A stretch of 37,215 nt of DNA from Alphaproteobacteria bacterium (GTDB taxonomy: Bacteria; Pseudomonadota; Alphaproteobacteria; UBA9219). The notes under the pieces are model-generated. The model did no database searches. It had not been told where the DNA came from and saw nothing but the letters and a program-made list of their open reading frames with translations. This document shows positions 1,212 to 35,205 of the stretch, piece by piece. The position numbers and the translations under genes are program-made. Position 1 is the stretch's first letter; each line of letters starts with the position of its first letter. The DNA lies in NCBI GenBank assembly GCA_028690155.1, contig JAQVBU010000004.1, positions 102,609 through 139,823 of the forward strand. The letters run 5' to 3'.

Positions 1212-1250
1212 GCGGGCATGACGGAACTGGTAGACGTACAGGACTTAAAA
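1212..1250 (+). pseudogene. 5' half of chromosomal tRNA-Leu(UAA), cut by the integrated element
   Basis: Begins GCGGGCA (acceptor strand), TG, a D-arm (ACGGAACTGGTAGACGT) and the 5' side of an anticodon arm (CAGGACTTAAAA). After 1250 the tRNA sequence stops and is followed by GCCTAAAATT, which supplies no variable arm, T arm or acceptor. The missing part is at 35206-35250: GCGGGCA pairs perfectly with TGCCCGC at 35243-35249, and CAGGA pairs with TCCTG at 35206-35210. The rebuilt molecule is 84 nt plus an encoded CCA, a normal class II leucine tRNA with anticodon UAA. In the present arrangement neither half can give a tRNA. Confidence 0.9.
1241..1250 (+). other. attL core of the integrated element
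   Basis: GGACTTAAAA, identical to 35196-35205 at the other end. In the uninterrupted tRNA this covers the 3' part of the 5' anticodon stem and the 7-nt loop CTTAAAA. The flanking stem (CAGGA/TCCTG) is an inverted repeat around a 7-bp spacer, the usual layout of a tyrosine recombinase crossover site. Confidence 0.85.
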
Positions 1251-1318: not shown

Positions 1319-1329
1319 GAAAAAATGTG

Positions 1330-1347
1330 TTGCACATTCGTTACACA
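1330..1347 (+). other. Candidate integrase arm-type site, left end
   Basis: TTGCACA-4 nt-TTACACA. The same two heptamers, with a 5-nt gap, occur at 35118-35136 near the right end and on the same strand. The sites lie about 80 and 60 bp inside the two cores, as expected for the arm sites of a tyrosine integrase. Confidence 0.45.
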
Positions 1348-1402
1348 CTTTTTCACATTTTTCGGCTAAAATAGACCATGTCTATATAAAGTCCGGTGCG
1401 GC

Positions 1403-2689
1403 ATGAGTGTGCAAGAAACTGTGCAACAGACTGTGAAACACGAATTGATGGGCGGCAAACTTCACGTTTACCGCCGTGCGAACAGTGCCAAGTGGCAATG
1501 CTCGGCTTTCGTGAACGGGCGTAACTGGCGCGTGTCCACGAAAGAGGAAAGCCTCTCGCAGGCGAAGGACTTCGCCGAGGACTGGTATCTTGGCCTGAAA
1601 GGCAAGAGCCGTGCAGGCCAGCTCAAGACAGGCAAGCTGTTCAAGGTGGCGGCGCAGCGGTTCCTTGATGAGTTCGAAGTTATCACGCAAGGTCAGCGTA
1701 GCCCTGTTTATGTCCAAGGCCACAAGGACAGGATCAAGAACCATTTGAACCCGTTTTTCGGGCAAATGATCCTTTCCGAAATCACGGCTGGGCGCGTTCA
1801 GGATTACCGTATCCATCGCATGAAGAATGGGCGGAACGGGAAGCCTCCGGCGCGCAGCACGCTTCATCAAGAAATCGTATGTCTTCGGCAGATATTGAAG
1901 ACGGCCAATCGTCACGGTTGGCTCGACTATTTGCCCAATCTGTCACCACCGTTTCAGCAATCGACAAAAATCAGCCACAGGGCTTGGTTTTCGCCGGAGG
2001 AATATAAGCGTCTTTATGCCGCCACGCGAAAGAGGGCGATGCACCCGCCCAAGAAGCGTTGGCGCTGGTCGTGCGAGCAGTTGCACGACTTCGTTTTGTT
2101 CATGGCGAATACCGGCTTGCGCCCGGACGAGGCGCTCCGGTTGCAATTCCGCGATGTGGAGATCGTCAAGGACAAGGGCACCGGCGAGACGATCTTGGAA
2201 ATTCAGGTTCGTGGCAAAAGAGGGGTCGGCTACTGCAAAAGTATGCCGGGAGCAGTAGAGCCCTTCAAGCGATTGAAGGATCGCTTGCGTCCGACCCTGT
2301 TTGACGCCGACGAGAACTCGGCGGGTCAAAATCTTCGCTCATCAAAGGTCTCGGCGAAGCTTGTCAAAACGACGCCGACCGATCCGCTTTTTCCTACGAC
2401 GCATCATGAATTGATGAACAGCATTCTTGATGAGGAGAAGCTCAAATTTGACAGGGAAGGGAACCGCCGCACGGCTTACAGCCTGCGACACACCTATATC
2501 AGTCTTCGGTTGATGGAAGGGGCTGACATCTATCAGATCGCCAAAAACTGCCGTACCAGCGTCGAGATGATCGAGAAGTATTACGCATCCCATATCAAAG
2601 ACATGCTGGACGCTTCGGCGATCAATGTGCGCCGCGCGGGAAACAAAAAAGCGGCCAAAGACAAGAAAAGCCGTGAAGATGTTGAATAA
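1403..2689 (+). CDS. int: Tyrosine recombinase / integrase of the element
   Basis: A 428-aa site-specific recombinase that would catalyse insertion into, and probably excision from, the tRNA-Leu anticodon loop. The N-terminal part (about 1-160) has a SAM-like core-binding region; the catalytic domain follows. Visible catalytic residues: R240 in TGLRPDEALRL, a lysine in the beta-hairpin VRGKRG, R362-H363 in AYSLRHTYISLR, and a tyrosine at Y393 or Y394 in MIEKYYASH. The first His of the usual HxxRH box is Tyr here, and the usual GH before the nucleophile reads NC; such variants occur in functional phage-type integrases. The ATG at 1403 has a poor ribosome site. The gene begins about 150 bp from the left core, the usual place for an integrase, and is followed at once by the element's own tRNA-Leu gene. 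No excisionase gene was recognised. Confidence 0.93.
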   Translation: MSVQETVQQTVKHELMGGKLHVYRRANSAKWQCSAFVNGRNWRVSTKEESLSQAKDFAEDWYLGLKGKSRAGQLKTGKLFKVAAQRFLDEFEVITQGQRSPVYVQGHKDRIKNHLNPFFGQMILSEITAGRVQDYRIHRMKNGRNGKPPARSTLHQEIVCLRQILKTANRHGWLDYLPNLSPPFQQSTKISHRAWFSPEEYKRLYAATRKRAMHPPKKRWRWSCEQLHDFVLFMANTGLRPDEALRLQFRDVEIVKDKGTGETILEIQVRGKRGVGYCKSMPGAVEPFKRLKDRLRPTLFDADENSAGQNLRSSKVSAKLVKTTPTDPLFPTTHHELMNSILDEEKLKFDREGNRRTAYSLRHTYISLRLMEGADIYQIAKNCRTSVEMIEKYYASHIKDMLDASAINVRRAGNKKAAKDKKSREDVE

Positions 2690-2704: not shown

Positions 2705-2733
2705 TTGGCAAAAGGAGAGGTTATCGGTATAAG
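2705..2733 (+). promoter_or_regulatory. Promoter of the element-borne tRNA-Leu gene
   Basis: TTGGCA at 2705-2710 and TATAAG at 2728-2733, spaced exactly 17 bp. Transcription would start about 3-5 nt before the tRNA at 2743. It is close to the sigma-70-type consensus and shows that the tRNA does not depend on a chromosomal promoter. Confidence 0.65.
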
Positions 2734-2742
2734 AAAGCGCAT

Positions 2743-3044
2743 GCGGGCGTGGCGGAATCGGTAGACGCAACGGACTTAAGCAAATGAAATTGAGTGCTCC
2801 TCGGGAAATCGAGGAAGTAGAACTGCCCAAATTCGGGGAACCCTTTCAAATGGCGATCCCGAGCCAAGCTCCGGCGACGGAGAAGGTGTAGAGACTAGAC
2901 GGGCAGCACCTAAGGCCTTAGGCGATGGTGAAGGGATAGTCCAGACCACAAACTTGCTTTCGGGCAGGGCGGTGAAAACCGTAGCAGGTAAGAAAATCCG
3001 TCGGAAGCAATTCCGTGGGGGTTCAAGTCCCCCCGCCCGCACCA
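2743..3044 (+). tRNA. tRNA-Leu(UAA) interrupted by a group I intron
   Basis: Exon 1 is 2743-2777 and exon 2 is 2993-3044; together they give an 87-nt tRNA including an encoded CCA. Acceptor strands are GCGGGCG and CGCCCGC. The D arm is GCGGAATCGGTAGACGC and the anticodon arm ACGGA-CTTAAAA-TCCGT with anticodon TAA. A variable arm follows, and the T arm is GGGGGTTCAAGTCCCCC. The interruption lies between U34 and A35, the position used by tRNA-Leu(UAA) introns of cyanobacteria and plastids. The gene has its own promoter and terminator. It lies inside an element whose insertion has split the chromosomal tRNA-Leu(UAA), so it is very likely the working replacement. Its stems differ from those of the split host gene at several base pairs, so it is not a recent copy of it. 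Confidence 0.93.
2778..2992 (+). ncRNA. Group I intron (IC3-like) in tRNA-Leu(UAA)
   Basis: A 215-nt self-splicing intron without an open reading frame. P1: the exon end CUU (2775-2777) pairs with GAG at 2792-2794, giving the obligatory U-G pair at the 5' splice site. Conserved core: P-like AATTCGGGGAA at 2830-2840, Q-like CCGAGCCAAGC at about 2859-2869, R GACTAGACGG at 2893-2902 and S GATAGTCC at 2935-2942. P7 forms by pairing GACTA (2893-2897) with TAGTC (2937-2941). The last intron base is G2992, as required. Size, insertion point and core match the tRNA-Leu intron family of cyanobacteria. Absence of a homing endonuclease implies spread together with the element or tRNA gene. Confidence 0.92.
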
Positions 3045-3054
3045 GTATTTCAAT

Positions 3055-3077
3055 GGGAGCCATCGGCTCCCTTTTTT
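3055..3077 (+). terminator. Rho-independent terminator of the tRNA-Leu gene
   Basis: GGGAGCC-ATC-GGCTCCC followed by six T, starting 10 nt after the tRNA 3' end. The 7-bp stem is perfect. It closes an independent one-gene transcription unit. Confidence 0.88.
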
Positions 3078-3201: not shown

Positions 3202-3960
3202 ATGGGTAAGTACAAAGCACTACAACGATACTTGTTAAATACCGATAAAAATACGCAGAAGATGCGATTTAAAGATGTCGAAGAAATTATTGGCAGCAAT
3301 CTTCCCCGTAGTGCCTATGTTCATTCCGCATGGTGGGCTAATGACGCCCGCGGCCACACGCACGCTACGTCATGGATTCAAGCCGGTTGGATGACGGAAG
3401 AACCTAATCTTAAAGACCAGACGGTTGTATTTCGGAAAACGCCTCCAACAAGTGTGAAAGAAAAGCGGCCTTTGAAAGTACGCACGTTAGAGCATAAGGA
3501 TGCTTCAGATATTTATCCATGGGATATTTGTTCTTGCCTTGAGTGTACGGCAACAATGCAGTGGGAGCCTTTAGGTAAAGTCGTTCTTGATGCCAAAGGG
3601 CGGCCTCTGTTTCCACATGTTGAAAATATTCCTGCTATATACAGAATCCGCATGCGTCAGAATGACAAGATATCGCTTTACGTTGGCGAAACAGATAATT
3701 TGAAACGCAGATTTGGAAATTATCGAAACCCCGCTCCAACGCAGCAAACGAGCCTACGAATACATGCCTTGATAAAAAAAGCCCTCGAAGTAGGGGCCGA
3801 AGTGTCTGCTTCAGCCATTGTAGGCAAGGCGTGGATTTCTATAGGCAGTAAACGAACATTTGCGAACCTAACATCAAAAACCGTTCGATGCTTGCTCGAA
3901 AACTCAGCCATCTTAACTTGTGGCGGTGAGGAGATTGAAACTTTAAACCGTGCAAAATAA
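3202..3960 (+). CDS. DUF7662-like domain fused to a GIY-YIG nuclease domain
   Basis: 252 aa. Residues about 1-80 (GKYKALQRYL, then SAYVHSAWWANDARGHTHATSWIQAGW) resemble DUF7662, a small domain often fused to nucleases or other DNA-acting domains. Residues about 145-200 form a GIY-YIG-type nuclease core: IYRIR at 146-150 stands for the GIY strand and LYVGETDNLKRRF at 159-171 for the YIG strand plus the conserved arginine; a downstream Glu is less clear. A Cys pair (CSCLEC, about 109-114) sits in the linker. It is the first gene after the tRNA terminator and is followed 12 bp later by a second nuclease-like gene, so the two probably form a unit. Likely role: restriction-like or other defence nuclease. 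This is inference from domain type and island context; substrate unknown. Confidence 0.65.
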   Translation: MGKYKALQRYLLNTDKNTQKMRFKDVEEIIGSNLPRSAYVHSAWWANDARGHTHATSWIQAGWMTEEPNLKDQTVVFRKTPPTSVKEKRPLKVRTLEHKDASDIYPWDICSCLECTATMQWEPLGKVVLDAKGRPLFPHVENIPAIYRIRMRQNDKISLYVGETDNLKRRFGNYRNPAPTQQTSLRIHALIKKALEVGAEVSASAIVGKAWISIGSKRTFANLTSKTVRCLLENSAILTCGGEEIETLNRAK

Positions 3961-4533: not shown

Positions 4534-5346
4534 TTATTCGCCCTTCCATGGATCGCCGGGAAGTAGATTGATCAGCCGTTCCTGAATTTCTTGCGAAGAT
4601 TCCGCAAGATTCCAAACATAGCCGGAAGAGAGCAGGGGCGTAATGTCCGCCGTGAACTCTTTCATCGTGAGCTTGGCGGCAAGGTTTTTCTCGAACATGG
4701 CGCGTGTGACGCGTCCGCCTTCTTGCTCCATATAGCCATTGAACGCCTGAACAACTCGCGCCGGATTGACGCTCGGGTTTTTGAGCGCGACGGCCAAATC
4801 GAAAAGATCGCGGCCTTTGCGGCGTTGGTAGAGGGCGCGCAGTTTTGTGCCAAGAAGTTCATCAAGTTGATAAGAGGTGATCGCGGCTTGCCCTTCGTAC
4901 CAGCGCGAAGAAACGGCGAAGGTAATCTTCTCGTAGCCGAAGAGCGTAAAATGCTCTCGGGAATTGATCTCAACTTTCAGACGAAGGCGCAAAGGCGGCG
5001 CGCCTTCGGACAGAAAGCGGTAATAAAGCGTGACGCGCCCCTCGTTTTGTTTCCATTGCGGATCGCCCAACCACGGATCAAGCGCGTCCCGCAAGGCCTG
5101 CATCGTGGGGCCGATAGGGGCGGCTTTGATTTGAACGAGGTCGATGTCTTCGGAATAGCGCGCGGCAGGTTTGAGGTGCAATTTGTAAAGCGCCGTCCCG
5201 CCGCGAAACGCGAGCGTTTCCGCAAGCGTTGGCTGCGAGAAGATTTCGACAAGCGCGCGGCTGATCACCAGATCCTGCTCGACCTGCTCGTCCTGAACCC
5301 ATGGCGCTTGCCCGCGCCACGCGGTGATGTCGTCGTGCGGGATCAT
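4534..5346 (-). CDS. abiEii: AbiEii-type nucleotidyltransferase toxin
   Basis: 270 aa. Toxin of a type IV AbiE toxin-antitoxin system; family members are nucleotidyltransferases acting on RNA (tRNA for characterised relatives) and cause reversible growth arrest, also during phage infection. Visible motif: FRGGTALYKLHL at 48-59 followed by RYSEDIDL at 63-70, the GGT/S...DxD signature of the fold. A later stretch (LDELLGTKLRALYQRRKGRDLFDLAVAL) is the conserved helical part with K and D typical of the family. The start ATG overlaps the antitoxin stop by 4 nt (5343-5346), so the pair is translationally coupled, antitoxin first, as is usual for AbiE. It may stabilise the element as well as defend the host. 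Confidence 0.88.
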   Translation of the reverse strand: MIPHDDITAWRGQAPWVQDEQVEQDLVISRALVEIFSQPTLAETLAFRGGTALYKLHLKPAARYSEDIDLVQIKAAPIGPTMQALRDALDPWLGDPQWKQNEGRVTLYYRFLSEGAPPLRLRLKVEINSREHFTLFGYEKITFAVSSRWYEGQAAITSYQLDELLGTKLRALYQRRKGRDLFDLAVALKNPSVNPARVVQAFNGYMEQEGGRVTRAMFEKNLAAKLTMKEFTADITPLLSSGYVWNLAESSQEIQERLINLLPGDPWKGE

Positions 5347-6128
5347 GTTTCGACCTCGATATCCGTGTTGATGTTAAGCCGCCACGCATTGGGCTTTGTC
5401 TCGGAAGCGGCTGGCGCGCTGGGTAAAAGCAAGGCCTTGTCTTTCGCCGTTTGGCGCACATATTCCTTGAGCGCGACGGCTTTGTCAGGCGCGCTGACAA
5501 GCTCCAGAAGATAGCCAACCCTTTGCGCCCACGCTATGGGGGCGGTCTTTGCCGCGAGGACAAGACGCTGCGGGTCAATTTGCTCGGCAAGCTCCGAAAG
5601 GATCGTTGCCGTTTGATCAAGTCCGCCGATGCGCGGCGCGTAGCCCACAAGATCGAGGGCCGTCGCCTCGACCGTCGAGACAAGGATCGTGCCGCGCGGT
5701 GTGTTGAACTTTTGCGTTGCGACTTCGGCGAGGCGGCTTCGGGAGAAGAACGCCACACGCACCATGCCGCACGTTATCGCTCGCCTGCTCTTGGCGAGCA
5801 TGACCTGAAATTCCTGCGGGCGGTGATGCGCGGCTCCATGATATTGCGCCGCCGACAAAAGTCCGGCGTAATAGGCGAGACCGCGTTCTTGCATAAGCGA
5901 AGGGATAAACTGATCCGCAGGCAGACAGCCGAGGCGTTTGTATTCCGGCGGAAGGATCACATGAAAGCCGCGCGCAGGGCTTGCCGTCAGGCTTTGTTTG
6001 CCAAGACGCAGCAAGGCCAACTTGGCTGCGTCGGGCGACAGAGACAAAGCGCGGCACATCGCCTCGGACGTGAAGTGATGCACGCCTTTGGACGCCAAAT
6101 CGTCGATATATTCCCGCGCCTTTGACAT
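5343..6128 (-). CDS. abiEi: AbiEi-type antitoxin
   Basis: 261 aa from the ATG at 6128 (MSKAREYIDDLASKGV), chosen because GGGAA lies about 8 nt upstream and because AbiEi proteins normally begin with this helix-turn-helix region; a longer frame opens at 6173. The N-terminal winged helix (about 1-60, including FTSEAMCRALSLSPDAAKLALLRL) would bind DNA and repress the operon. The following part (YYAGLLSAAQYHGAAHHRPQEFQVML, then GTILVSTVEATALDLVGY) is typical of the AbiEi C-terminal domain. It is the first gene of the two-gene abiE operon read leftward. The antitoxin blocks toxin activity without necessarily binding it, as known for the family. Confidence 0.87.
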   Translation of the reverse strand: MSKAREYIDDLASKGVHHFTSEAMCRALSLSPDAAKLALLRLGKQSLTASPARGFHVILPPEYKRLGCLPADQFIPSLMQERGLAYYAGLLSAAQYHGAAHHRPQEFQVMLAKSRRAITCGMVRVAFFSRSRLAEVATQKFNTPRGTILVSTVEATALDLVGYAPRIGGLDQTATILSELAEQIDPQRLVLAAKTAPIAWAQRVGYLLELVSAPDKAVALKEYVRQTAKDKALLLPSAPAASETKPNAWRLNINTDIEVET

Positions 6129-6291
6129 TTTTATTCCCGTCAAACAGACGAAATCATCTGCGTAAAGTATCACATTACAATACCTTATGAAAGTTTATTC
6201 TTGGTTTATATCGGGAAGTCTTTGAATCTTATCAATTATTATGGCGCGCCCCTTTGGGAACGGGCTCTACGCACTGTGCTCACCGAACCTG

Positions 6292-6930: not shown

Positions 6931-9570
6931 TCAATCAACCTTGTCTTGCCGATCCCTAATATCCGAAATCCATTGAGAAAGAGTGTTAATTTCGCTTTCA
7001 ATAGTTGCTGGGGATGGAAGACGCGGGTTCAGTTCCCCTGGCTGGCTATGAAGAAGCATGGAACATCTTCCAAAGGCCTCCCTCATTGTTTTGCAATCTT
7101 CAGGTTCGATAATTGTGAGCTTCATTAGTCCTGCAGTTTCGACTTTTCGTGAGAGCCGCTTGATAACTGGACTTAAGGCTTCTTCCACGGATCGTTCCCA
7201 TGTGGTGCGAAGCTGATCTTGAAATGAAGTGACCTCACGCTGCCATTTGGCTTGATCTCCACGTTCATGATGTATTTTCACGTTTGCAAGATGTTTTCTC
7301 ATTCCTTCGATAACTTTATCAAGAGGCATAACATTTGTTGGCGGGTCTTCGTGACAAAATCCTGCCGAGTCAGTATTACGACTTACTAAACGATAAGATA
7401 CCTGAACCGCCTCTCTCTCTTTGGTGGCGCGACAAGCCTCATCAAGAAGTAGGAGAAATGCTATGTCGTGAGTAAAAACAATGACCTGCCTATCCCTTCC
7501 TTCTTCGGCTAAGCGTGCCGCGACTTTATCCCGATGAAGGTGATCAAGAGAAGAGACCGGATCGTCGAAAACAATAGCTGATTGAGCATCAACAGTCACA
7601 AGCTCTGCTAAGAAAGCAGCAAGCGCAACACAACGATGTTCTCCTTCGCTTAGAATCTTTCCGACGGGCTCACTTGGTTTGTTAATAAGGCGAACTTGAA
7701 AATATGGAACGCCGGCACTCGTTTTTGCCTGTTGCAGTTCGATAGCAAGCCCGGCAATCCCAAGTTTATTTACTTCAATAGAAAAGCGGCCACGGAGTCG
7801 GTTTGTAACAAGTGCATCAGCAAGGTCAGTGCTTAAAGCTGTAATGCGATTTGTGGTTGTCTCTTTTACAAGTCTTGATAAAGAGGCAATAGATTTCAAT
7901 CTCTGAATTTGTGCGAGCACGTCATTCTTAATTAAAGAGAGCCACTTACGATCAACAAGCTCGTTATACTCTGCAACAAGAGCGGCGCGAACTGGGGAGC
8001 CGTCCTCGGCTAGCAGGACAGTCATGCGTTGTGCCAGCTCTTGGCTGGCTAAGGCCATTTTACTGAAAGGTATGACTGGGGGTTGTGGTAACGCATGCTC
8101 AGAGGACAATCGATGTGTGCGCACAATGAATCTAAATCGCCATAAAGCTTTAACCGCTTCTTTGCGCATTTCATCTGCTAGCAGCGTGTTTCCCATGTCG
8201 TCGCGCACCGTAGATATAAAAGCAAGCATATCTCTTATAGAAATTTTGGTCGCTGTTAGTGAACCCAACTTTTGTTCATAAATGTTCCGAGCAGCGGCTT
8301 CTTGACGCTTGCTCTCATCTTTAATGAAGCTTTCAAAGCTTTGCAGCCGGTTAGCAGAGGCCTCATCAAGTTCCTGCTGACAAAGCACACAACGTGCACC
8401 ACTTTGTATAACGGGAAAGGGTTGTTCAGGATAAGCGGACTCTTGAGAATATACTCTGGCAGCTTCCCATAGTGTCTTCCAAGCATCAGATCCTATATCC
8501 GGCAGTGGTTCGGAAGAAAAAAGATTTGTAGATGCAGCTAAGGCTGCTTTTCTAGCAGCAGCAAAAGCTTGTGCCGATGAGCGCAAGAGCGCGACTTCTT
8601 CGTCTGAAATAGCTCTTGTTAGGTTTAGTAGGCGTTCGGTTGCATTATCGAATTTACTTTTAATGGCTTGTATCTGGCGGGCTGCTCGCGCTGGATCGCT
8701 GCTGAGGTCTGTCCTGAGGAGTTCTAGACGCGCGTCCTGATCAGAATCCAAAGAGGAAAGATTTTCAACATCTATGGGCTTTGTGACAGCCGAAAGACTA
8801 GCCATCAATTTCCCTACAGCTGTTTCAGACTTGCACTTTGGTATAGAAATAACTTCCGGTGTTTGTTTTTTTAAGGCCTGAATTTCATCATTCAAGCATG
8901 TTTTCATATTCTGACAAGCCTGCGCAAGAGCGGCCAAAATCTTCAAAGGCAATGGGGTGTAAGCCAAATCATTAATGTTATCGACGTGAACATTAGCGGT
9001 GCGACTATCAAATACGCTAATAGCCGACAGCATGGCGTCAGTTGATGTCCCAAGCGTCCAAGTAACCGAGCTTTTTTGTGCGCCAACTGAATAGTCCAAG
9101 CTGGCCTTGGGCATGCCTGGATTTTCTGTGTAAATGTTTGGCAGGATAGTTTCCCCCTTTGGGGAACGCGCTCGGCAAAGCTGTTTTAGGATGCGTGCAT
9201 AGCCTGACTTTCCAGCACCATTGTCACCGTAAACTACGGTTAGCCCCGCCTTGCAGAAAGTCAACCGTTCACCAACAGCAAGGGCATTAACGTTCTCTAG
9301 GCTGTGTAATGCTCCTATCGTTACAACAGCATTACCTGCTGCAGGACTGCGGACATGGATAGCTTCAAGAGGAGAGCCAATGGCTGTGCCTTTACAAATC
9401 TTCAGCAACTCTGCCAAATCAGATTCTTCAAGTTTATCTTGAATGCAGAGCCGTCGAAGGGCATCGCGTTGCCAAACAGGGCATCCGGTTGACCAGTCGA
9501 GAATAGAACTAAAAGCTGAAGCCTCGTTCGTTATGGGGGCTGTTTGTTCTGCTGTTGTTGTTTGTCCCAT
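6931..9570 (-). CDS. RloC/PrrC-like ABC-type ATPase with CxxC zinc-hook motif and possible C-terminal HEPN nuclease
   Basis: 879 aa from the ATG at 9570 (MGQTTTAEQ), preferred over 9588 because GAGGGAG lies just upstream. Walker A is GDNGAGKS at 115-122, an ABC-like signature LSEGEHR lies at about 641-647 and Walker B is IVFDDPVSSLDH at about 666-677, with the switch histidine in FTHD. A CVLC motif at 394-397 lies in the helical middle region, like the zinc hook of RloC and Rad50. Near the C-terminus, R835-X5-H841 (RCSMLLH) fits the R-X4-6-H motif of HEPN RNases. RloC and PrrC are ATPase-controlled anticodon nucleases, so an infection-triggered RNA-cleaving role is plausible. The nuclease assignment is inference. 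The gene stands alone and is convergent with 6416-6889. Confidence 0.72.
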   Translation of the reverse strand: MGQTTTAEQTAPITNEASAFSSILDWSTGCPVWQRDALRRLCIQDKLEESDLAELLKICKGTAIGSPLEAIHVRSPAAGNAVVTIGALHSLENVNALAVGERLTFCKAGLTVVYGDNGAGKSGYARILKQLCRARSPKGETILPNIYTENPGMPKASLDYSVGAQKSSVTWTLGTSTDAMLSAISVFDSRTANVHVDNINDLAYTPLPLKILAALAQACQNMKTCLNDEIQALKKQTPEVISIPKCKSETAVGKLMASLSAVTKPIDVENLSSLDSDQDARLELLRTDLSSDPARAARQIQAIKSKFDNATERLLNLTRAISDEEVALLRSSAQAFAAARKAALAASTNLFSSEPLPDIGSDAWKTLWEAARVYSQESAYPEQPFPVIQSGARCVLCQQELDEASANRLQSFESFIKDESKRQEAAARNIYEQKLGSLTATKISIRDMLAFISTVRDDMGNTLLADEMRKEAVKALWRFRFIVRTHRLSSEHALPQPPVIPFSKMALASQELAQRMTVLLAEDGSPVRAALVAEYNELVDRKWLSLIKNDVLAQIQRLKSIASLSRLVKETTTNRITALSTDLADALVTNRLRGRFSIEVNKLGIAGLAIELQQAKTSAGVPYFQVRLINKPSEPVGKILSEGEHRCVALAAFLAELVTVDAQSAIVFDDPVSSLDHLHRDKVAARLAEEGRDRQVIVFTHDIAFLLLLDEACRATKEREAVQVSYRLVSRNTDSAGFCHEDPPTNVMPLDKVIEGMRKHLANVKIHHERGDQAKWQREVTSFQDQLRTTWERSVEEALSPVIKRLSRKVETAGLMKLTIIEPEDCKTMREAFGRCSMLLHSQPGELNPRLPSPATIESEINTLSQWISDIRDRQDKVD

Positions 9571-9691
9571 AGCTCCCTCATAGTCCATTTGCTTAAAGCG
9601 ATAGACTACTATTCCGTGTATTTACAGGCGTGTAAAGAGAACAAGCTTTATCAATGGGAATACAGACTTATGCCATTTAGCTTCATCTGTT

Positions 9692-12220: not shown

Positions 12221-12694
12221 TTATTGATGTTCTTTCTCACCAACCAATTTTATTGATCCCCCCATCCCCTCGACCGTTTCTTTTGCGTTTGCAAAATCGA
12301 CCTTGCCTTCCCATTGCTTAAGAAAGCGATTGTAGCGGAAGCCGAGGGAGCGAAGGGTGGCTGTAAGTTCGGGGTCGATCTTGGTGCCGAAGCGGGCGAT
12401 GGCGACGACACGGGTATCGGCCTCTTGCTGGAAATGTTTTGATCCCGCGCGTTCCCATGTGCCAACCGCTTTGGGGTCGTCTTTCGCTTCCGCCGCGATG
12501 TGTAGAAAACGGTCATAGAGCGCGGCAGGGGGCAGGGCATCAATCCCCGCCTTGACGAGCAAACCGCCAACCTCGATGAGGTGGCGCGTTCGCTCTTTGC
12601 GCTGCATGAGTTTGAGGCGCGCGGCCTCTTGTTCGGCCCGCGCTTTCCGCGCAGCGGCTTTTTCCAGACGTTCCCCAAGCGTTAATTTTGGCAT
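12221..12694 (-). CDS. traD: TraD/MobC-like conjugal transfer accessory protein
   Basis: 157 aa from the ATG at 12694 (MPKLTLGERLEKAAARKARAEQ), with GGGGGA about 6 nt upstream. The first 60 residues are a basic helix with a coiled-coil look, and QRKERTRHLIEVGGLLVKAGIDALPP matches the short TraD domain of Ti-type transfer systems. The C-terminal part (ADTRVVAIARFGTKIDPELTATLRSLGFRYNRFLKQWEG) has a separate small fold. Such proteins bind near oriT and help the relaxase. Transcribed away from traA, with the candidate oriT between them, which is the layout of Ti-type DNA-processing regions. Confidence 0.75.
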   Translation of the reverse strand: MPKLTLGERLEKAAARKARAEQEAARLKLMQRKERTRHLIEVGGLLVKAGIDALPPAALYDRFLHIAAEAKDDPKAVGTWERAGSKHFQQEADTRVVAIARFGTKIDPELTATLRSLGFRYNRFLKQWEGKVDFANAKETVEGMGGSIKLVGEKEHQ

Positions 12695-12806
12695 AGCGTC
12701 CCCCGTTAATTGACGGTTTTTCGACACCCTTGGCGGCATCATAGCATAATTTTGGCGATATTTCTACGTAACGGACAGTTATGCAGCCTGCGTTCATACG
12801 CAATAT

Positions 12807-12850
12807 GCGTTGCAAGCAACGCGGATTGCGAATTGTGCCCAATTATGTTA
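12807..12850 (+). other. Candidate origin of transfer (oriT)
   Basis: In the 166-bp gap between the divergent traD and traA genes. GCGTTGC-AA-GCAACGC (12807-12822) is a perfect inverted repeat, preceded by ACGCA-ATA-TGCGT, which overlaps its left arm. It is followed by TGCCCAATTATGTTACG at about 12836-12852, which as I recall resembles the nick region of Ti-type oriT sites. Position and structure support the call; the nick site is not established. Confidence 0.45.
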
Positions 12851-12860
12851 CGATGCTGAC

Positions 12861-15251
12861 ATGGCAATTGAATTCGCCCGTGTTCGGTACATTAAGCGTA
12901 GCGACGGTGGCAATGTCTGCCGCTCCTCCGCTTACAATGACCGCAGCGACCTCCTGTGCAAGCGCACGGGCGAGCGGTTCTATTTTGCTCACCGCGATCC
13001 CGTCCTCTACAAAACCGTCCTTTTGCCCGAAGGCACGGACGAGAAATTCCGCGATCCGGAGCTGCTCTGGAACGAAGCGCAGGCCATGGAAAAGCGGAAG
13101 GACTCGCAGGAAGCCCGCGAGCTTCTTCTTGCCCTTCCGACCGATGTCGGCCTGACGCTCGACGATTGGAAGGCCATGACGGAGGAGTTCGTTAACGAAA
13201 ACTTTGTGAGCAAAGGCCTCGCGGTTCAGGTCGATATTCATATGCCGCACAAAGGCGAAGTTAACGTCCACGCCCACATCTTGATCTCGACCCGCCGCCT
13301 TGAGGGGGAGCGTTTCGCGGATCACAAAGCCCGAGATCTCGATCCTGAAATCAAAACCATGAAAGGTGGGAAGAAGGCTGTAACCGAGGCGGAACGTTGG
13401 GGCGTGTTATGGCGGGATTACCAGAACCTTTATTTCGAGCGCGAAGGGCTCGAAATACGGGTTGATGACACAGGCCCCTATGCTCAACGGCATGAAGGGC
13501 CGGTGCGCTTGCGAACCCGTCCCAAGGATGCCGATGCCCGCGCCGAGGCTACGCGGGAAGCGAATATTAAAGCCTTACACGATACCGATAAGATATTGGA
13601 AACGCTCACACGCAACCGGGCGACATTCGTTGAAATGGATATCGAAAGGCTTCTACGCAAACACATCGAAGATCCCTTGGAGCGCGCCGGTATCCGGGCG
13701 CAGGTCTTGAGCCACAAGGACGTTATCGCGCTTCATAACCGCGACAATGGAGCTTTTACGGGCCGCTATACGGTGAAGGGCGTTCGGGAACAAGAAAAAG
13801 AGGTCGTGCGCGCCGCAGAAAGAATTGCTGCAAACAGAAAAGCCATCAAAGGACGTTACGCACAATCCGTCGCTAAAGAAATGACCCTCGATCCAGAGCA
13901 GGAGGCTGCTTTTCTTAGGGCTACCGGAACAGACGGGCTTGTTGTGATTGAGGGGCTGGCGGGAACCGGCAAGAGCCACAGCTTAGCGGCCATTAGGGAG
14001 GCTCATGAGCGTTCTGGTTGGCGCGTCGTGGGGTTAGCGCCGACCAATGCTGTTGTGGAAGATATGCGGAAGTCCGGTTTTAAGGAAAGCCGCACCGTGC
14101 ATCGGGAAGTCTATTGGCAGGAGCTTAAAGGCCAAACCCTGTTCGAGCCTTGGGATCGTAGAACGGCGATCATCGTGGACGAGGCTGCCATGCTTGATAC
14201 CTTTACCTATTCCCGCCTGATGAAACAGGCGGCAGAAAAGGGAGCCAAGGTTATTCTGGCAGGCGATGACCGGCAGCTTTCGAGCGTGGAGCGCGGCGGG
14301 ATATTCACGGTTCTAAAAGAACGGCATGGCAGCGTCATCATCTCCAAGGTGCGGCGGCAGGAGAAAGATTGGCAGAAGGAAGCTTCGGAAGACTTCGCGC
14401 AGGGGCGCATGGCGGAAGGGCTGCGCGCCTATGCCGAACACGGGCATGTCCACTGGTCGAAGGACATCGACGAAAGCCGGACGCGCCTTTTGTCGGATTG
14501 GGATCAGGACAGCCGCGAGAAACCGGAAATCAATCGTTTCGTCTATGCGGGCACGAATAAGGAAGTGAACGAGATGAACCGCCTGATCCGCGATATTCGG
14601 GTGCAGCGCGGCGAGATCAAGAATGAAATCGAAGTCGATACCGTGCGCGGCAAGCTGGCGTTTGGCGCGGGCGACAGGATTCAATTCCACGGAACCAATA
14701 GGCAGTTTGATATTAATAATGGCGCGCTCGGCACCATCCAAAAAATCCGGGAGGGGGAGATCACGGTTAGAACCGATAGCGGGAAAAGCGTTTCCTTCAA
14801 TCCGCAAGAGTTCAATGAGTTTGGCCTCGGTTATGCCGGAACGGTCTATCGCGGCCAAGGTAAGACGCAAACGGAAGTTTATGCGCTCTATGACAACGCT
14901 TTTGCGTGGAATGCGCGAACGGCATACGTCGGTCTTACCCGCCACACGGATCGGGTTGAGCTTTATGTGTCGCGCGATTTGGCTTCAGATGAAGTTGTTT
15001 TGGCTCAAAGGATGTCCAAGCGCTTTCGCGATGAGGCTAGCCTTGCCTGGGCAACAGAAGGTGAAGTCAAGGAAAAGGGCAAGGAGAGGGGCGAGACGGA
15101 ACGCGGTGAGCCTAGTCAATCTGCGGGCAAACACACGCTTCCTTTTGTCAAAGATCGTGAAAACGCTACTCAAACGACGCCGGACAACGGACGCGACACA
15201 TCGCTTCCTTTCGTGAAAGATCGAGGCGACGATGACGAGATGGAACGGTAA
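12861..15251 (+). CDS. traA: Ti-type TraA relaxase-helicase (MOBQ class)
   Basis: 796 aa from the ATG at 12861 (MAIEFARVRYIKRSDGGN), chosen because relaxases of this class start immediately with such a strand; the frame is open 51 nt further. The N-terminal relaxase domain (about 1-230) has the three-histidine metal motif H-x2-H...HAH (H130, H137, H139 in HMPHKGEVNVHAHIL) and a Tyr-rich start (SSAYNDRSD, Y25 a candidate nucleophile). A RecD/TraI-like helicase follows with Walker A GLAGTGKS at 365-372 and Walker B IIVDEAAML. The tail contains LPFVKDR twice. It would nick oriT, stay covalently attached and unwind the strand. It is shorter than the Ti plasmid TraA (about 1100 aa), lacking its C-terminal extension. 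Confidence 0.92.
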   Translation: MAIEFARVRYIKRSDGGNVCRSSAYNDRSDLLCKRTGERFYFAHRDPVLYKTVLLPEGTDEKFRDPELLWNEAQAMEKRKDSQEARELLLALPTDVGLTLDDWKAMTEEFVNENFVSKGLAVQVDIHMPHKGEVNVHAHILISTRRLEGERFADHKARDLDPEIKTMKGGKKAVTEAERWGVLWRDYQNLYFEREGLEIRVDDTGPYAQRHEGPVRLRTRPKDADARAEATREANIKALHDTDKILETLTRNRATFVEMDIERLLRKHIEDPLERAGIRAQVLSHKDVIALHNRDNGAFTGRYTVKGVREQEKEVVRAAERIAANRKAIKGRYAQSVAKEMTLDPEQEAAFLRATGTDGLVVIEGLAGTGKSHSLAAIREAHERSGWRVVGLAPTNAVVEDMRKSGFKESRTVHREVYWQELKGQTLFEPWDRRTAIIVDEAAMLDTFTYSRLMKQAAEKGAKVILAGDDRQLSSVERGGIFTVLKERHGSVIISKVRRQEKDWQKEASEDFAQGRMAEGLRAYAEHGHVHWSKDIDESRTRLLSDWDQDSREKPEINRFVYAGTNKEVNEMNRLIRDIRVQRGEIKNEIEVDTVRGKLAFGAGDRIQFHGTNRQFDINNGALGTIQKIREGEITVRTDSGKSVSFNPQEFNEFGLGYAGTVYRGQGKTQTEVYALYDNAFAWNARTAYVGLTRHTDRVELYVSRDLASDEVVLAQRMSKRFRDEASLAWATEGEVKEKGKERGETERGEPSQSAGKHTLPFVKDRENATQTTPDNGRDTSLPFVKDRGDDDEMER

Positions 15252-15263: not shown

Positions 15264-17177
15264 CTAACCTTTAAGGGCTTGCAGATTAATTCCCAAAGAC
15301 TTCAGCGACGCATGATCGTACCAGACCACCTTTTGTCCCGGTATGGGATCGAGATTTTCGACGAAGACAATCTGGTCGTTGCGTTTCAACGCCATCAGTT
15401 CGTCAGGATAGGCCAATTGACGTTGCGCCTCGCTGACGCCGCTCGTTCTAGTCCAGCTTGAGGTCGATGTCGTCGAATCCGTGGAACTTCCTCCGCTGCT
15501 GGAAAAAGTCATGCTTGTCGCATAACTGATGGCTTTGCCGACGGCCCATGAGAAATTGTGCGTTTCAACCGTTGTTACGCCGCAGAGCGTGGAAAAATAT
15601 TCGGCAGTCATCTTATCACGGCTTCCAAAATATTGAATGACGCCGGAATTGCTGATGAAGGTTTGCCAGCCGTGTTCCCCATAAACGCGCGCAAGTTGGG
15701 AGAGGTCTTGGATAATGCCCCACAATTGCATGCCAAATCCTGCCATAAGGCTGTAAGCTTGTTCGAGCGCAGGCAACCGACCTAGGGCCGGCATTTCGTC
15801 AAGCAGGAAAAGAATGGGCTTTGAAGGTTTCTTTTCGACATTACGTGCATTGACGGTGATGGCTTGCTGGATCAGCAAACGCAACCAGCGATCAAAAGTG
15901 TTGAGGCGATCCGCTGGCAGGATGAGATAAACGCTGGTCGGCGCGCTCTTCAGTTCCTCGAAACTGAAATCCGACCTTTCCAAGCTTTGCCGGATGCGAT
16001 TGCTATCAAGAAAATGCGTGTGGGCCTGAGCCACAGCTAAGACGGAACTGAACAAACGCGTGGCCTTGGAAGCTTGCCGTGCCGCTGTGGAACGGACTAC
16101 GGGATGCGAATGCGTGGACATCTTTGTCAGGACATCTCTAAACATAGTGTCATCCATATTCAGGATGTCTCTGACCCGTCCCAAGGTGCGGTCATCGCTT
16201 TCTTCGTCTGCTGTTCCGACATAAAGAATAATGCCCGTCAATAGGGCTTTGGCTTCGTCGTCCCAGAAGCGTTCGCGAACTTCATTCTCTGGGACGACAA
16301 GGGCATCGGCTAATAAGAAAGCGTTTTCGGCGGCATCGGGATCGTCGCTTTTGATCCAGTCCAGCGGATTAAAGGCTGCTTGTGGCAGGCCTAGTTTTGA
16401 GGCGGCAACGTCCCAAGGGTCAAGCAGAACGACTTTTTGCCCCATCCCCGGAATATTGTCTTTTGTACTCCCTTGTCCTCTGCGGAGAGCGGTGACGAGC
16501 GCGTTCTCACCCTTCGGATCCACGATGAAGGCTGAGCCTTGATGAAGGAGAAGGTTCGGAATGATAGAGGATACGCCTTTGCCGCTGCGCGTGGGCGCAA
16601 CGGTCAGTAAATGGCGTGCGCCTTCATATTGCAGAGGATGCGTTTCTGAATTGGAGGCAAAAGTTCCCAAGAGGAGGCCGTCGGAGCCGATAATGCCGTT
16701 TTCTTGCAGATGTTGCAAAGTGGCCCATTGAGCCGATCCTAAACTTGTTGCTCTTTTGGCTGGCAGGATAATGCCCATTTTCTTGCCGATGCGGATGCCA
16801 AAATAGAAGGCAACAAAGAAGAGTACGGTAGCGATTAGATAGGACACCGCGTCGCCTTCAGGGGAAGGGCCGAAAGCCGCAAACAGAACAATACCGGCGA
16901 GAATGGCATAACCGATATACCGTCTGAATTTTTTCAAAGCCGGTGAAAAGAAAGCGCCGATAATGATCCCGATGATGGAAGAGAAAAGGCTCGGAAGAAG
17001 ACGGGCCCAAAACGGGGAGGATTCGTGTCTGACAGAAGGAAAATCGTAATACTGAGCGTGTGCGGCGACACTGAAGAGAATAATCAGTAAACAAGCGCAG
17101 ATCGCAGTTGAGAAGGCAAAGGTTCTTTTTTGTGACAATCTTTTGATATTAGCCAAGACAGATTCAGAGGGTTCCAT
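15264..17177 (-). CDS. traG: TraG/VirD4-type coupling protein 1
   Basis: 637 aa from the ATG at 17177 (MEPSESVLANIKRL), with GGAG 5 nt upstream. Membrane segments at about 21-38, 62-78, 90-104 and 114-128 anchor it in the inner membrane; the cytoplasmic ATPase follows. Walker A is APTRSGKG at 194-201 and Walker B LLDEMPALG at 458-466. The stretch AQAHTHFLDS is typical of the VirD4/TraG family. It would bring the relaxosome to a type IV secretion channel. The C-terminal part has a Ser/Thr-rich stretch (SSSGGSSTDSTTSTSS). It ends 12 bp from traA on the opposite strand. A second coupling protein is encoded 540 bp upstream, which is unusual. Confidence 0.9.
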   Translation of the reverse strand: MEPSESVLANIKRLSQKRTFAFSTAICACLLIILFSVAAHAQYYDFPSVRHESSPFWARLLPSLFSSIIGIIIGAFFSPALKKFRRYIGYAILAGIVLFAAFGPSPEGDAVSYLIATVLFFVAFYFGIRIGKKMGIILPAKRATSLGSAQWATLQHLQENGIIGSDGLLLGTFASNSETHPLQYEGARHLLTVAPTRSGKGVSSIIPNLLLHQGSAFIVDPKGENALVTALRRGQGSTKDNIPGMGQKVVLLDPWDVAASKLGLPQAAFNPLDWIKSDDPDAAENAFLLADALVVPENEVRERFWDDEAKALLTGIILYVGTADEESDDRTLGRVRDILNMDDTMFRDVLTKMSTHSHPVVRSTAARQASKATRLFSSVLAVAQAHTHFLDSNRIRQSLERSDFSFEELKSAPTSVYLILPADRLNTFDRWLRLLIQQAITVNARNVEKKPSKPILFLLDEMPALGRLPALEQAYSLMAGFGMQLWGIIQDLSQLARVYGEHGWQTFISNSGVIQYFGSRDKMTAEYFSTLCGVTTVETHNFSWAVGKAISYATSMTFSSSGGSSTDSTTSTSSWTRTSGVSEAQRQLAYPDELMALKRNDQIVFVENLDPIPGQKVVWYDHASLKSLGINLQALKG

Positions 17178-17265
17178 GGAGACTCCTTTGGTTCGGGCTT
17201 CCCCGGAATGGGTAAAAAGCGGCAGCAAATCATAACAGGATGATTATTTCAGGCAAGATTCATAA

Positions 17266-17772
17266 CTAGCTTGGGCTGGGGCCGTTATATTTGCGCTTTG
17301 GTGTAAAGCGATGTTGGGATACCGAAGCCGTTTTTGTTACTTGTTGCACTGGATGGATGCGCTCCGGTCGCGGGGTTTCTTCCGGTTCTTCCGGATAGGG
17401 CGTGGGAGCTGGTTCCGGGAGATGAATTTTATGCGGTTCTTGCGCGGTTGAAGCGAAATTCTCAAGCGCAGCGATGACAAGGCCTCTGAAAGTCACATCT
17501 TTGAAGGCACAGCGGGTGCAACACAAAGCATCTGGCTTGCAACCCCACGCTTGCATACCCGCCTCGGCCAGTTTTTGAAGAATGCGCAGGCCTTCGTATG
17601 TTTCGACAAGTTGCCGGAACATTGGCACCCAATGGGAACGGCTCGGTGTGCGTGGCCTTCCGGCTCTGTTATAGCGATCTTTCCAAACAGACAGGCCATC
17701 CGCCGCATAAAGGAGGATGATCTTGACCGGCGGCGGCAGAAGAGGGCGTTCTTCTTCGAGCGGGGTTTTCAT
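17266..17772 (-). CDS. Hypothetical protein between two coupling-protein genes
   Basis: 168 aa. Its start overlaps the stop of the upstream coupling-protein gene by 4 nt (17769-17772), so it is translationally coupled to it. The first 60 residues are basic (WKDRYNRAGRPRTPSRSHW); LRILQKLAEAGMQAWGCKPDALCCTRCAF contains a Cys cluster (CxxxxxxCCxxC) that could bind a metal ion. The last 60 residues are proline- and glutamate-rich (PEPAPTPYPEEPEETPRPE) and probably disordered. No known family was recognised. A role in DNA transfer with the two coupling proteins is inferred from position only. Confidence 0.6.
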   Translation of the reverse strand: MKTPLEEERPLLPPPVKIILLYAADGLSVWKDRYNRAGRPRTPSRSHWVPMFRQLVETYEGLRILQKLAEAGMQAWGCKPDALCCTRCAFKDVTFRGLVIAALENFASTAQEPHKIHLPEPAPTPYPEEPEETPRPERIHPVQQVTKTASVSQHRFTPKRKYNGPSPS

Positions 17773-19265
17773 GTCGCGTTACCCCTTCCTGCGCGGATCA
17801 TGGGGTTCGGATCAAACAGGCCGATAAATTCCTTGTCCGCGAAATAACGCACGCGATCCGCAAGAACCGGCTCTTTGCCTTGAAGAAGGAGGATTTCTTT
17901 CCGGCGCGGCAGGCGCATGATTTCCTGCGGCATAAGAAGAGCGCGCGATGTTGCGCTATAACTTTCTGCGCTCTGATCGTATTCTGTTTTGCCGCTGCGG
18001 CTGTGTTGGCGCACCATGATTGTGCGGTGTCCTAGCATATCGGATAAATGCTGCGCCGTTCCGAGATCGTTGACGCCAAAGGCTTGCACGGCTCCGGCAT
18101 TGGCAAGGAAGGACTTCCAGCGGTTCGGGTAAAGGTCTTGAAGCTGGCTCAAATCCTGCAAAATCGGCCACAACAACACGCCATAACCGGCTAGAAGCCC
18201 CATGGCCGTTTCGATGGCTTGCAAACGCCCCAGCGCAGCAAACTCGTCTAGCATAAACAAAACTGGAACAGGCGGAACTTGTCTATCGCGCGTCATGGCG
18301 GAGAGGCAAAGGCCGACAATCAGACGCAGCCACCTACCATGCGTTGCAAGCCGATCAGCGGGCAGCACGAGATAGATTGTCATATTGCCGTTCTTCAAAT
18401 CTCTCAGGTCGAAATCTGAAGCCGACAATACTTCCGTCATGCGCGGACTATCCAGAAAGTGCGTTTGCGCTTGCGACGTGGACATGACGCCGGAGCGTTC
18501 CTTGTCCGTCTTTTGGCGGATACGCCGCGCTGTACGGGAAACCAACCCGTGCGCGCTTTTGTTTTCGGCCATTTCATCAAGAATGGTGTCAAAGCCGTCT
18601 TCGCCTGCCGTCAGCATGGCGCGGAGTTTGCCAAGATGCCGATCTTCCGGAAATTCCGTTGTGGCAATGTGCATCAGAAGGCCGGAAATCAATGCGCGGG
18701 CTTCGTTGTTCCAAAACTCTTCTTCACCTTTGGGAGAAGGCAACACAAGACCATCGGCTAGCAAGGCGGCATCCTCGGCAATATCATGGCTCTGTGGCGC
18801 AAGCGACAGCAACGGATTGAAGCGAGCGCGCACCTGTCCAGTAAGTCCCCACGGGTCGAGAACGTAAACAGCTTGCCCCATCGCGCAACGCGCCCGCGCT
18901 GTTACCATGGCATTCTCGCCTTTGGGGTCGATCACGAGAACCGATCCGGGCCATGTCAAAAGGTTCGGGATAATGGAGGAAACGCCTTTACCAGCGCGGT
19001 TCGGAGCAAGCGTCAGCAAATGCTTGTTGGCATGCTCGCGCACAAGGCGACCGTTCAAACGCCCAAGGATAAGGCCCTGTTTTGCGAAAAGGCCGTCTTT
19101 TTGAAGACGTTTCTTGCTTGCCCATGTCGCTGTGCCGTGGGCGGTATCGGTCTCATGTCGGAAATAGGCGATCTTCAACAACTCATGGCCTGCTATCGCA
19201 AAGCCAACGAGTGCCGCGCCAACCGAAATAAAGTTTATGCCAGTCGGGAAAAAGGAAAGAGTCAT
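17769..19265 (-). CDS. TraG/VirD4-type coupling protein 2
   Basis: 498 aa from the ATG at 19265 (MTLSFFPTGINF); GGAGG lies 5 nt upstream, whereas the ATG at 19277 lies inside that site. One membrane segment (about 10-29) precedes the ATPase: Walker A APNRAGKG at 87-94, VIDPKGENA, and Walker B FMLDEFAALGR. It shares the motif order of the 637-aa protein (SQAQTHFLDS, YLVLPADRL, RWLRL) but lacks its extra membrane helices and Ser/Thr-rich tail, so the two are distant paralogues. It is the first gene of a leftward unit with the 168-aa protein and probably the 637-aa coupling protein. Having two coupling proteins may widen the range of helper secretion systems; this is inference. Confidence 0.88.
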   Translation of the reverse strand: MTLSFFPTGINFISVGAALVGFAIAGHELLKIAYFRHETDTAHGTATWASKKRLQKDGLFAKQGLILGRLNGRLVREHANKHLLTLAPNRAGKGVSSIIPNLLTWPGSVLVIDPKGENAMVTARARCAMGQAVYVLDPWGLTGQVRARFNPLLSLAPQSHDIAEDAALLADGLVLPSPKGEEEFWNNEARALISGLLMHIATTEFPEDRHLGKLRAMLTAGEDGFDTILDEMAENKSAHGLVSRTARRIRQKTDKERSGVMSTSQAQTHFLDSPRMTEVLSASDFDLRDLKNGNMTIYLVLPADRLATHGRWLRLIVGLCLSAMTRDRQVPPVPVLFMLDEFAALGRLQAIETAMGLLAGYGVLLWPILQDLSQLQDLYPNRWKSFLANAGAVQAFGVNDLGTAQHLSDMLGHRTIMVRQHSRSGKTEYDQSAESYSATSRALLMPQEIMRLPRRKEILLLQGKEPVLADRVRYFADKEFIGLFDPNPMIRAGRGNAT

Positions 19266-19539
19266 GGCCCCCTCCAAAATCCGGAGATCGGGCAGGGCCG
19301 TTTTGTTGACCTCTTACATGGGCGGCTTGTGCCGAAATCCCCATTGCGTGTCTGAAATTCGCATAAAGCAAACCATTTCCTATTTATCATTCACAATAAC
19401 ACAAAAATTTGAAACTTAAATTTACACGCTGCATACACGAGGATTCATTTTCTCCTTTTGCAAAAAAATATTTTGCCGCCATGCGTTCTCGATCCACGCA
19501 GTCCTAGGGCGCACCCCGCCGCTTCGAGACAAGAGCTTC

Positions 19540-24491: not shown

Positions 24492-24500
24492 TATATATTC

Positions 24501-25622: not shown

Positions 25623-25709
25623 GATAGAAATCTGCGATATGCAGCCCCCATTTTTCTCTAGACAAATTGTAGGCAGGTAGTGCTCTCATAATTTTTAGCA
25701 TGAATGTAC

Positions 25710-30837: not shown

Positions 30838-30964
30838 CAAGTATCCAATGGCTGGTTATTCCATAACCCTAAGAAATTATGCTTATATTTCGCGTATGGC
30901 AATTCCAAAAGAATGAAGTTTGATCAGGAAATGGGCTGTTTTGGGTCTCTTTTTGACCTGTTTT

Positions 30965-33573: not shown

Positions 33574-33679
33574 GGCCTGTGCCTCCAAAGTTCAAGAAAG
33601 TTTGATTTGAAACGGAAGTCTGGTCAATGACAATAAAATGTGCTGTCCTTTACAAGACAATAGCATCTTGGGGTATGAA

Positions 33680-35117: not shown

Positions 35118-35136
35118 TTGCACAGTTTCTTACACA
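35118..35136 (+). other. Candidate integrase arm-type site, right end
   Basis: TTGCACA-GTTTC-TTACACA, matching the left-end site at 1330-1347 in both heptamers and in orientation. It lies about 60 bp before the right core. Confidence 0.45.
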
Positions 35137-35195
35137 TAGCACAAAAGAACATCGACTTTATCATTAAATAACAAAAGGATAGCCGTATACAAAAC

Positions 35196-35205
35196 GGACT
35201 TAAAA
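35196..35205 (+). other. attR core of the integrated element
   Basis: GGACTTAAAA, identical to 1241-1250. The base before it is C (element) and the bases after it continue the tRNA anticodon stem TCCTG (chromosome). Confidence 0.85.

Follow-up and report, generated by a model that had tools for sequence, protein, structure and literature searches.

Group I introns occur in bacterial tRNA-Leu(UAA) genes, for example in cyanobacteria, and mobile elements with extra tRNAs are known. The closest described systems are ICEs of Pasteurellaceae, in which, according to the available parts of the two papers, an intact tRNA-Leu replaces the disrupted one (PMC6028734, PMC6861422). In the same parts, ICEPmu1 and ICEMh1 are described as inserted in the anticodon loop of tRNA-Leu, which is UUG-reading there, and neither an intron nor an immunity rule is mentioned (PMC6028734, PMC6861422). 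Their integrases belong to the XerD family, with sizes of 30 and 36 kDa, as given in the available part of PMC6028734. Islander, in the available part of its description, states the usual rule that attP restores the tRNA gene; the islands of this type have a tyrosine integrase, an anticodon-centred crossover and a target fragment at one end, the attP fragment rebuilds the target, and the search relies on PF00589 (PMC4383910). ICEHin1056 and ICEApl1 are ICEs in tRNA-Leu(TAA), where the 3' part of the gene is rebuilt by a 65-66 bp repeat, and a separate spare is not mentioned in the available part of the paper (PMC4908127). Randau-Soll proposed that interrupted tRNA genes, kept by hosts, protect against integration (as quoted in the available parts of PMC4390854 and PMC3978253). 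tRNA fragments or islands are also treated in PMC9897764 and PMC2258188, and the arrangement described below is not shown in the parts of them available.

The window analysed here, that is, the whole stretch of DNA of 37,215 nucleotides, contains an integrative element of approximately 34 kb (window ~1244-35205), which splits tRNA-Leu(UAA) in the anticodon loop upstream of guaA and carries a spare tRNA-Leu(UAA) with a group I intron directly behind its integrase gene. Like ICEPmu1 and ICEMh1, it is inserted in the anticodon loop of tRNA-Leu and replaces the split gene by an intact element-borne copy; its integrase, of 428 aa and with the single Pfam match listed below, appears to differ from their XerD-family enzymes. 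It shares the integrase type, the crossover and the terminal target fragment with Islander-type islands, but it carries a whole spare instead of a rebuilding attP fragment, and its integrase has no match to PF00589 at E 0.001. With ICEHin1056 and ICEApl1 it shares the target tRNA-Leu(TAA). The intron is of the same family (RF00028) and at the same insertion point as those of other bacterial tRNA-Leu(UAA) genes; unlike them, the gene here is an element-borne spare and the intron lies inside the target of the integrase. As in the Randau-Soll proposal, the interruption would remove an integration target, but here a mobile element would shield its own spare, with a group I intron. The earlier note on this DNA knew of no description of such a system. 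This was wrong for the replacement tRNA-Leu, which is already known (PMC6028734, PMC6861422), while for a group I intron tRNA joined with an integrase replacement gene, and so for the intron as a shield, no description was found in the titles and abstract openings of the open-licence literature.

Anatomy of the element and its spare tRNA

The host genome (G000) has 2.1 Mb in 43 contigs, is 99.36% complete and, judging from its relatives, probably belongs to an alphaproteobacterium. The features of the window are as follows.

1212..1250 (+): 5' half of the native tRNA-Leu(UAA), attL, ending in the anticodon loop CTTAAAA at 1244-1250 (sequence, joined-flank ARAGORN)
1320..1375 (no strand): TTGCACA / TTACACA-like repeats, putative arm-type sites, located after attL and ahead of the integrase gene
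1403..2689 (+): integrase, tyrosine-recombinase-like, 428 aa (Pfam PF14659 the sole match)
2705..2733 (+): promoter-like TTGGCA-17-TATAAG of the spare, TTGGCA at 2705-2710 and TATAAG at 2728-2733 (sequence)
2743..3044 (+): spare tRNA-Leu(UAA), complete with CCA, exons 2743-2777 and 2993-3044 (ARAGORN with introns)
2778..2992 (+): group I intron of 215 nt after U34, ending in G (ARAGORN; RF00028)
3055..3071 (+): terminator-like hairpin followed by a T run (sequence search)
3202..3960 (+): protein with DUF7662 and GIY-YIG domains, directly behind the spare (domain match)
4534..6173 (-): AbiEii / AbiEi type IV toxin-antitoxin pair (domain and defence-system matches)
6931..9588 (-): AAA ATPase, PADLOC candidate defence model PDC-S06 (domain and PADLOC matches)
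12221..12742 (-): TraD-like conjugal transfer protein (domain match)
12810..15251 (+): MobA/MobL relaxase with a helicase-like domain (domain match)
15264..19277 (-): two VirD4-like coupling proteins, 15264-17228 and 17769-19277, with a small ORF between (domain match)
22992..30840 (-): type I restriction-modification genes M, S and R, interspersed with one unmatched ORF and one gene for a PIN-domain protein
33638..34870 (+): phospholipase-like protein, a relative of CBASS effectors (NCBIfam score under the cut-off)
35120..35195 (no strand): putative attP-derived arm at the right end, including GTATACAAAAC (sequence)
35199..35253 (+): 3' half of the native tRNA-Leu(UAA), attR, from the loop CTTAAAA to CCA (sequence, joined-flank ARAGORN)

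The 10-bp core GGACTTAAAA is common to both junctions, at 1241-1250 and 35196-35205, so the insertion is site-specific and flanked by direct repeats of the core, as for other elements that target tRNA genes. When the flanks were joined at this core, ARAGORN gave an intact intronless tRNA-Leu(taa) of 87 bases, and the ends claimed for the element were borne out. The native gene is rebuilt at neither junction, both halves being incomplete, and the usual form of a tRNA island, with the target rebuilt by attP at one end, does not apply to this element. In the right-end arm, GTATACAAAAC resembles a tRNA-Leu 5' arm, and the same kind of arm is found in G423 and L228; repeats similar to those at 1320-1375 also occur upstream of related integrases. 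Downstream of the element, guaA has the GATase and GMP_synt_C domains. The left flank outside the element contains a long near-identical repeat (window 39-230 and 720-880).

Residues R240, R362-H363 and Y394 of the integrase are conserved in the family alignment, and we take them to be the catalytic residues. No match was obtained for the integrase in NCBIfam at E 0.001 or among PDB sequences at E 0.01. Integrase, relaxase and coupling proteins are present (mating-pair genes were sought in part of the ORFs), and because the cargo includes the relaxase, the TraD-like protein, the two coupling proteins and several defence genes, the element looks like a mobilizable defence island. Defence cargo is dense between 4534 and 34870, where a protein with an AbiJ N-terminal domain is also found.

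With introns allowed, ARAGORN found a single tRNA in the window, tRNA-Leu(taa), whose intron follows position 35 and lies between U34 and A35; with introns disallowed, it found no tRNA in the window. The insert matches RF00028 at 2768-2964, scoring 55 bits where the gathering threshold is 50 (E 1.8e-11, Rfam), which places the conserved core and structure of a group I intron above the curated score. These results confirmed the complete, intron-bearing tRNA-Leu(UAA) behind the integrase. The promoter claimed for it, TTGGCA-17-TATAAG, is present in the sequence, but a stricter consensus scan, in which the second hexamer must end in T, listed none for the spare. Similarly, one hairpin with a T run was found where a terminator had been claimed, but shuffled sequences average 1.0 such match.

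Relatives of the integrase and their spares

A total of 102 integrase loci were read, namely the window, 8 loci from 60 related genomes, 80 from a species collection, 3 from viral contigs and 10 from 385 class genomes. The 80 loci were the best of 512 relatives, the eight were the strong integrases of the 60-genome scan (weak matches L057-L062, L067 and L068 were left out), and the class-genome scan was cut at E 1e-60. Near-duplicates among the loci are L080/L081, L086/L088, L087/L091/L092, L118/L121 and L165/L168. The junction upstream of the integrase was UAA, CAA and UAG in 52, 33 and 2 loci, respectively, a rebuilt tRNA-Met in 11, a rebuilt tRNA-Arg in 2, and another type in 2 (L159, L173).

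Among the 52 UAA loci, 46 have an intron-bearing UAA spare and one has an intronless spare (L151); three (L124, L137, L160) showed no spare in the 2.2-6 kb examined, and two (L093, L141) end too early to show it. The intron is therefore present in 46/47 UAA spares, and because the intron-bearing UAA spare recurs in 46 of the 102 loci, window included, a chance origin of the arrangement is unlikely. Of the 33 CAA loci, 19 carry a CAA spare that lacks the intron, L084 carries one interrupted after U33, and the remaining 13, all acidobacterial, showed no spare in the 1.7-6 kb examined. The idea that the acidobacterial loci are spare-less was ruled out for the three followed to attR (G418, G419, G420), since all three have a complete tRNA-Leu(CAA) inside the element, far from the integrase. 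Both UAG loci have a UAG spare. Stable intronless replacement tRNAs in related elements had been named in the earlier note as what would refute its proposal, and 22 near spares without an intron were found (near-copies included). The CAA and UAG spares are mostly without it, which means that the intron is not obligatory.

The claim that the spare matches the split isoacceptor held throughout. The isoacceptor of the spare was that of the split gene or of the attP core in 63/63 fully readable near pairs and in 3/3 far ones; these 63 belong to 69 near spares, and the other 6 were readable in part, none contradicting. For four intron-bearing UAA spares (L082, L105, L112, L167), the contig stops ahead of the 3' exon; the 5' exon of L155 contains N, the target core of L073 is decayed, and the target half of L171 is atypical, its spare lying approximately 2.0 kb off, as read in L255. 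ARAGORN named several intron-bearing Leu genes Cys, Ser or Phe; these names were wrong, and the genes were judged by their exons. At the 13 loci with rebuilt Met or Arg targets, no spare was found except in L072, in stretches of at least 1.2 kb (270 bases in L076); the rebuilt tRNA-Met of L154, which starts at the contig end, was read by eye and not by ARAGORN. In L072 (G042), the rebuilt tRNA-Met and the integrase are followed by a second complete tRNA-Met and then by a decayed intron-bearing tRNA-Leu.

An attP-like junction instead of a tRNA half was seen in L097, L108, L113, L118, L121, L147 and L151, consistent with tandem or circular copies. On contig JAJZVA010000006.1, the related integrase loci L092 and L147 lie about 43 kb apart, the second with an attP-like junction, and they are probably tandem elements.

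The integrase tree contained 98 integrases (L073 and L173 were left out, and L094 and L161 were dropped for in-frame stops in the aligned span), with L171, L093, L141 and L159 labelled unknown. The Met-rebuilding type formed one clade with a support of 100/98. The label "UAA with intron" required 12 changes, at least 7 of them forced by well-supported branches, and the label "CAA" required 9, at least 5 of them forced. This repeated switching between UAA and CAA targets, with the spare following, favours a functional link between spare and target over one frozen accident. The tree by itself does not show the reason for the intron in the UAA spare.

UUA decoding in the host and intron-bearing genes without the integrase

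The host genome gave 45 RF00005 matches, of which the typed Leu genes were UAG and GAG only; six matches of 71-74 bases, class-I-sized and too short for a Leu tRNA, were left untyped. A pattern of the Leu D-loop and anticodon loop (UAA or CAA) had one match in G000, the attL half, and a pattern for an intronless host gene with the native 3' end had no match there. RF00028 gave two matches in the host genome, the window spare and C23:45056-45377 (L045, L229). The latter was identified as a tRNA-Leu(CAA) interrupted by a group I intron following U33: downstream of the final G of the intron, the 3' exon begins with CAAAATC, and joining the exons gives the core of the intronless tRNA-Leu(CAA) of the genus mate L206. 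A second UAA gene at this place would remove the dependence of the host on the spare, and was ruled out by the same 3' exon and core. The presence of an intron in this host gene and its absence in L206 amount to a gain or loss at the other target of the integrase family.

By the typed tRNAs together with the pattern and RF00028 matches, no intact UAA gene other than the intron-bearing spare was found in the host, and the claimed host dependence agrees with this as far as searched. The split gene was probably the only gene reading UUA codons. In eight further genomes with UAA elements (G414, G416, G421, G422, G424-G427), the pattern found no intact intronless UAA copy; it would miss intron-bearing second copies, RF00028 having been searched in G000 only. 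In 9/9 genomes including G000, each UAA match was either the attL half or an attR that lacks the acceptor strand, with the attL halves placed from contig ranges.

Intron-bearing tRNA-Leu(UAA) genes were also read in 387 class genomes. Of the 17 loci read (some RF00028 matches gave no locus and are outside this number), the integrase was in the fetched stretch in 5 and absent from it in 12; among the latter, L255 has an integrase approximately 2.0 kb away and L264 looks like a scar. In L264 (G172:C5) and L233 (G060:C68), half of a split tRNA-Leu gene adjoins a complete spare, and no integrase was detected over the 3.2 and 6.0 kb covered, respectively. These two loci are likely scars of decayed elements, and they look as though the host had needed the spare after the integrase was lost. 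Around the intron-bearing tRNA-Leu(UAA) genes of G001 and G005, 15 and 8 kb were read, respectively, and contained no integrase. Their neighbours look like housekeeping genes, which we take to be ATP synthase gamma and the Der GTPase, and the two genes may be relics or native genes.

Intron or altered core as a possible protection of the spare

We propose that the integrase acts on attP and on the anticodon arm of tRNA-Leu(UAA), recombining the two through the shared core GGACTTAAAA. Integration would split the sole gene for UUA codons, and the spare, arriving at the same moment, would take over; the cell would keep reading UUA codons because the element brings a complete gene of the same isoacceptor beside the integrase. 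This presumes that the spare is transcribed, spliced and used. A complete spare with the anticodon arm of the target would offer the integrase a further attachment site. The group I intron after U34 in the UAA branches would cut this site in the DNA, and self-splicing would restore the tRNA; in the CAA branches, the protection would come from an intronless spare that mostly differs at positions 30-32, beside and inside the crossover loop. On this reading, the intron or the altered core would make the spare refractory to the integrase. We consider it probable that this is a self-sparing, tRNA-splitting integrative mobilizable element, whose UAA spare is shielded by the intron and whose CAA relatives are shielded mostly by an altered core.

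The claim that the intron breaks the core in DNA, with the core read across the exons staying intact, agrees with the relatives. The core across the exons was GACTTAAAA in 40/40 intron-bearing UAA genes with both exons readable; a wider count of 45/45 includes L084, a CAA gene read in the UAA register, and four contig-cut genes. CTTAAAA stands at the exon-intron junction in 0/39 listed intron-bearing UAA genes. Five relatives have CTTAAAC there, which is 6/7 loop bases, and the 5' exon-intron junction in the window reads GGACTTAA, which is 8/10 core bases. The intron guide pairs with exon bases A31-U34 (P1, by eye) and so holds the exon to GACUU. This leaves an intron-bearing gene little freedom to alter its core, a freedom that the intronless genes have and mostly use, and for the same reason the unchanged core of intron-bearing spares is not independent evidence.

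For the intronless CAA spares, positions 30-32 were compared with the target or attP, with the near-copies L080/L081 and L118/L121 counted once. The match was 3/17 for near spares and 5/20 with the far ones, and 15/20 differ. A random pair of native CAA genes matches at these positions with a probability of 0.656 (about 34% differ), and 5/20 against this null gave P 2.5e-4, or P 1.2e-3 if L139, L145 and L148 are merged; the measure was picked after the data had been seen. A rule on base 32 only was too narrow, and it was widened to 30-32 post hoc. The native baseline, 150 CAA genes listed for this class, comprises 118 with GAC, 29 with GAT and 3 with other bases (counted by eye). Bases other than GA at 30-31 were found in 10/20 intronless CAA spares versus 3/150 listed native rows, a baseline of the window's class only, with 150 rows among more matches, which may hold a few element copies. 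The spares of L080 (=L081), L098 and L161 are identical to the last 38 nt of the host 5' half except for C32 to T32; these one-base cases may be one event, since the tree places L080 and L098 near each other and does not include L161. The core is also altered in L151, the intronless UAA spare, and in the UAG spare of L074. L084, the sole CAA spare with an intron, keeps its core. The excess of altered cores is visible in the sequences themselves, as are the split, the spare, its matching isoacceptor and the position of the intron, and "intron or altered core" fits a self-immunity rule. The rule is broken by six intronless spares that keep the core 30-38, five of CAA (L103, L118=L121, L140, G418, G420) and one of UAG (L108), and the expectation of the earlier note, an intron or altered loop in every relative, was mostly but not always borne out.

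The link of the intron with UAA could be common descent of one cassette combined with the need of the intron for U34. In line with this, the spare may be a genuine replacement and its intron a neutral passenger, captured by chance and then passed on as part of the UAA cassette. A position after U34 is common for group I introns in tRNA-Leu(UAA) genes, the same site is occupied in the 12/17 loci without the integrase in the fetched stretch (L255 and L264 included) and in G001 and G005, related elements live without introns, and the host tRNA-Leu(CAA) is interrupted by an intron although the 10 kb read around it contain no such integrase. However, 46/47 UAA spares have the intron, compared with 17 UAA-intron loci read from 387 class genomes, and UAA and CAA branches interleave on the integrase tree. 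Most intronless spares show altered cores, and L084, with its intron, does not. We therefore hold a passenger intron to be possible but unlikely. It is improbable, too, that the altered cores of the CAA spares reflect a foreign origin of the spare gene instead of selection against recombination. Although spare and host gene differ at 4-8 of 38 positions in 9/14 pairs compared, GA at 30-31 is missing in only 3/150 listed native CAA genes, and L080, L098 and L161 differ from the host 5' half at base 32 alone (L080 and L098 being close relatives).

Two further readings concern the role of the spare itself. If loss of the element killed the cell, the element would be an addiction module, and the lack of another intact UAA gene in G000, and of an intronless one in the eight other UAA-element genomes by pattern, speaks for this. 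But precise excision would restore the native gene, as the flanks joined in silico gave under ARAGORN, and the scars suggest that the integrase can be lost and the spare kept; we believe that such a module is very improbable. With the host gene rebuilt upon precise excision, the arrangement is probably no addiction in the classical sense, and the addiction proposed earlier was half right: loss or decay of the spare would be penalised. That the spare is cargo which improves translation of the element's codons and is unrelated to the split gene recalls the extra tRNAs of other mobile elements. This is hardly credible, given that the isoacceptor of the spare followed the split gene or attP in all 63 readable near pairs and all 3 far ones, and that no spare was seen at 12/13 rebuilt-target loci.

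Returning to the self-sparing element with a shielded spare, a wider reading is that a mobile element has put a group I intron to use as a shield for the target site and can therefore carry the very gene that it attacks, that CAA relatives change one to three core bases instead, and that some chromosomal intron-bearing tRNA-Leu genes are immune relics; for this the chances appear evenly balanced. The spare would explain how the element affords splitting what is probably the only UUA-reading gene. If the shield is real, a bacterial tRNA intron gains a concrete advantage, and the old proposal that tRNA interruptions guard against integration becomes directly testable. A large integrase family (512 relatives matched, best 80 read) would then break the rule by which tRNA islands are found, and some chromosomal intron-bearing tRNA-Leu genes would be relics of elements, immune to further insertion. 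As a minor observation, the GIY-YIG protein at 3202-3960 adjoins the intron-bearing tRNA, and a link to intron homing is possible.
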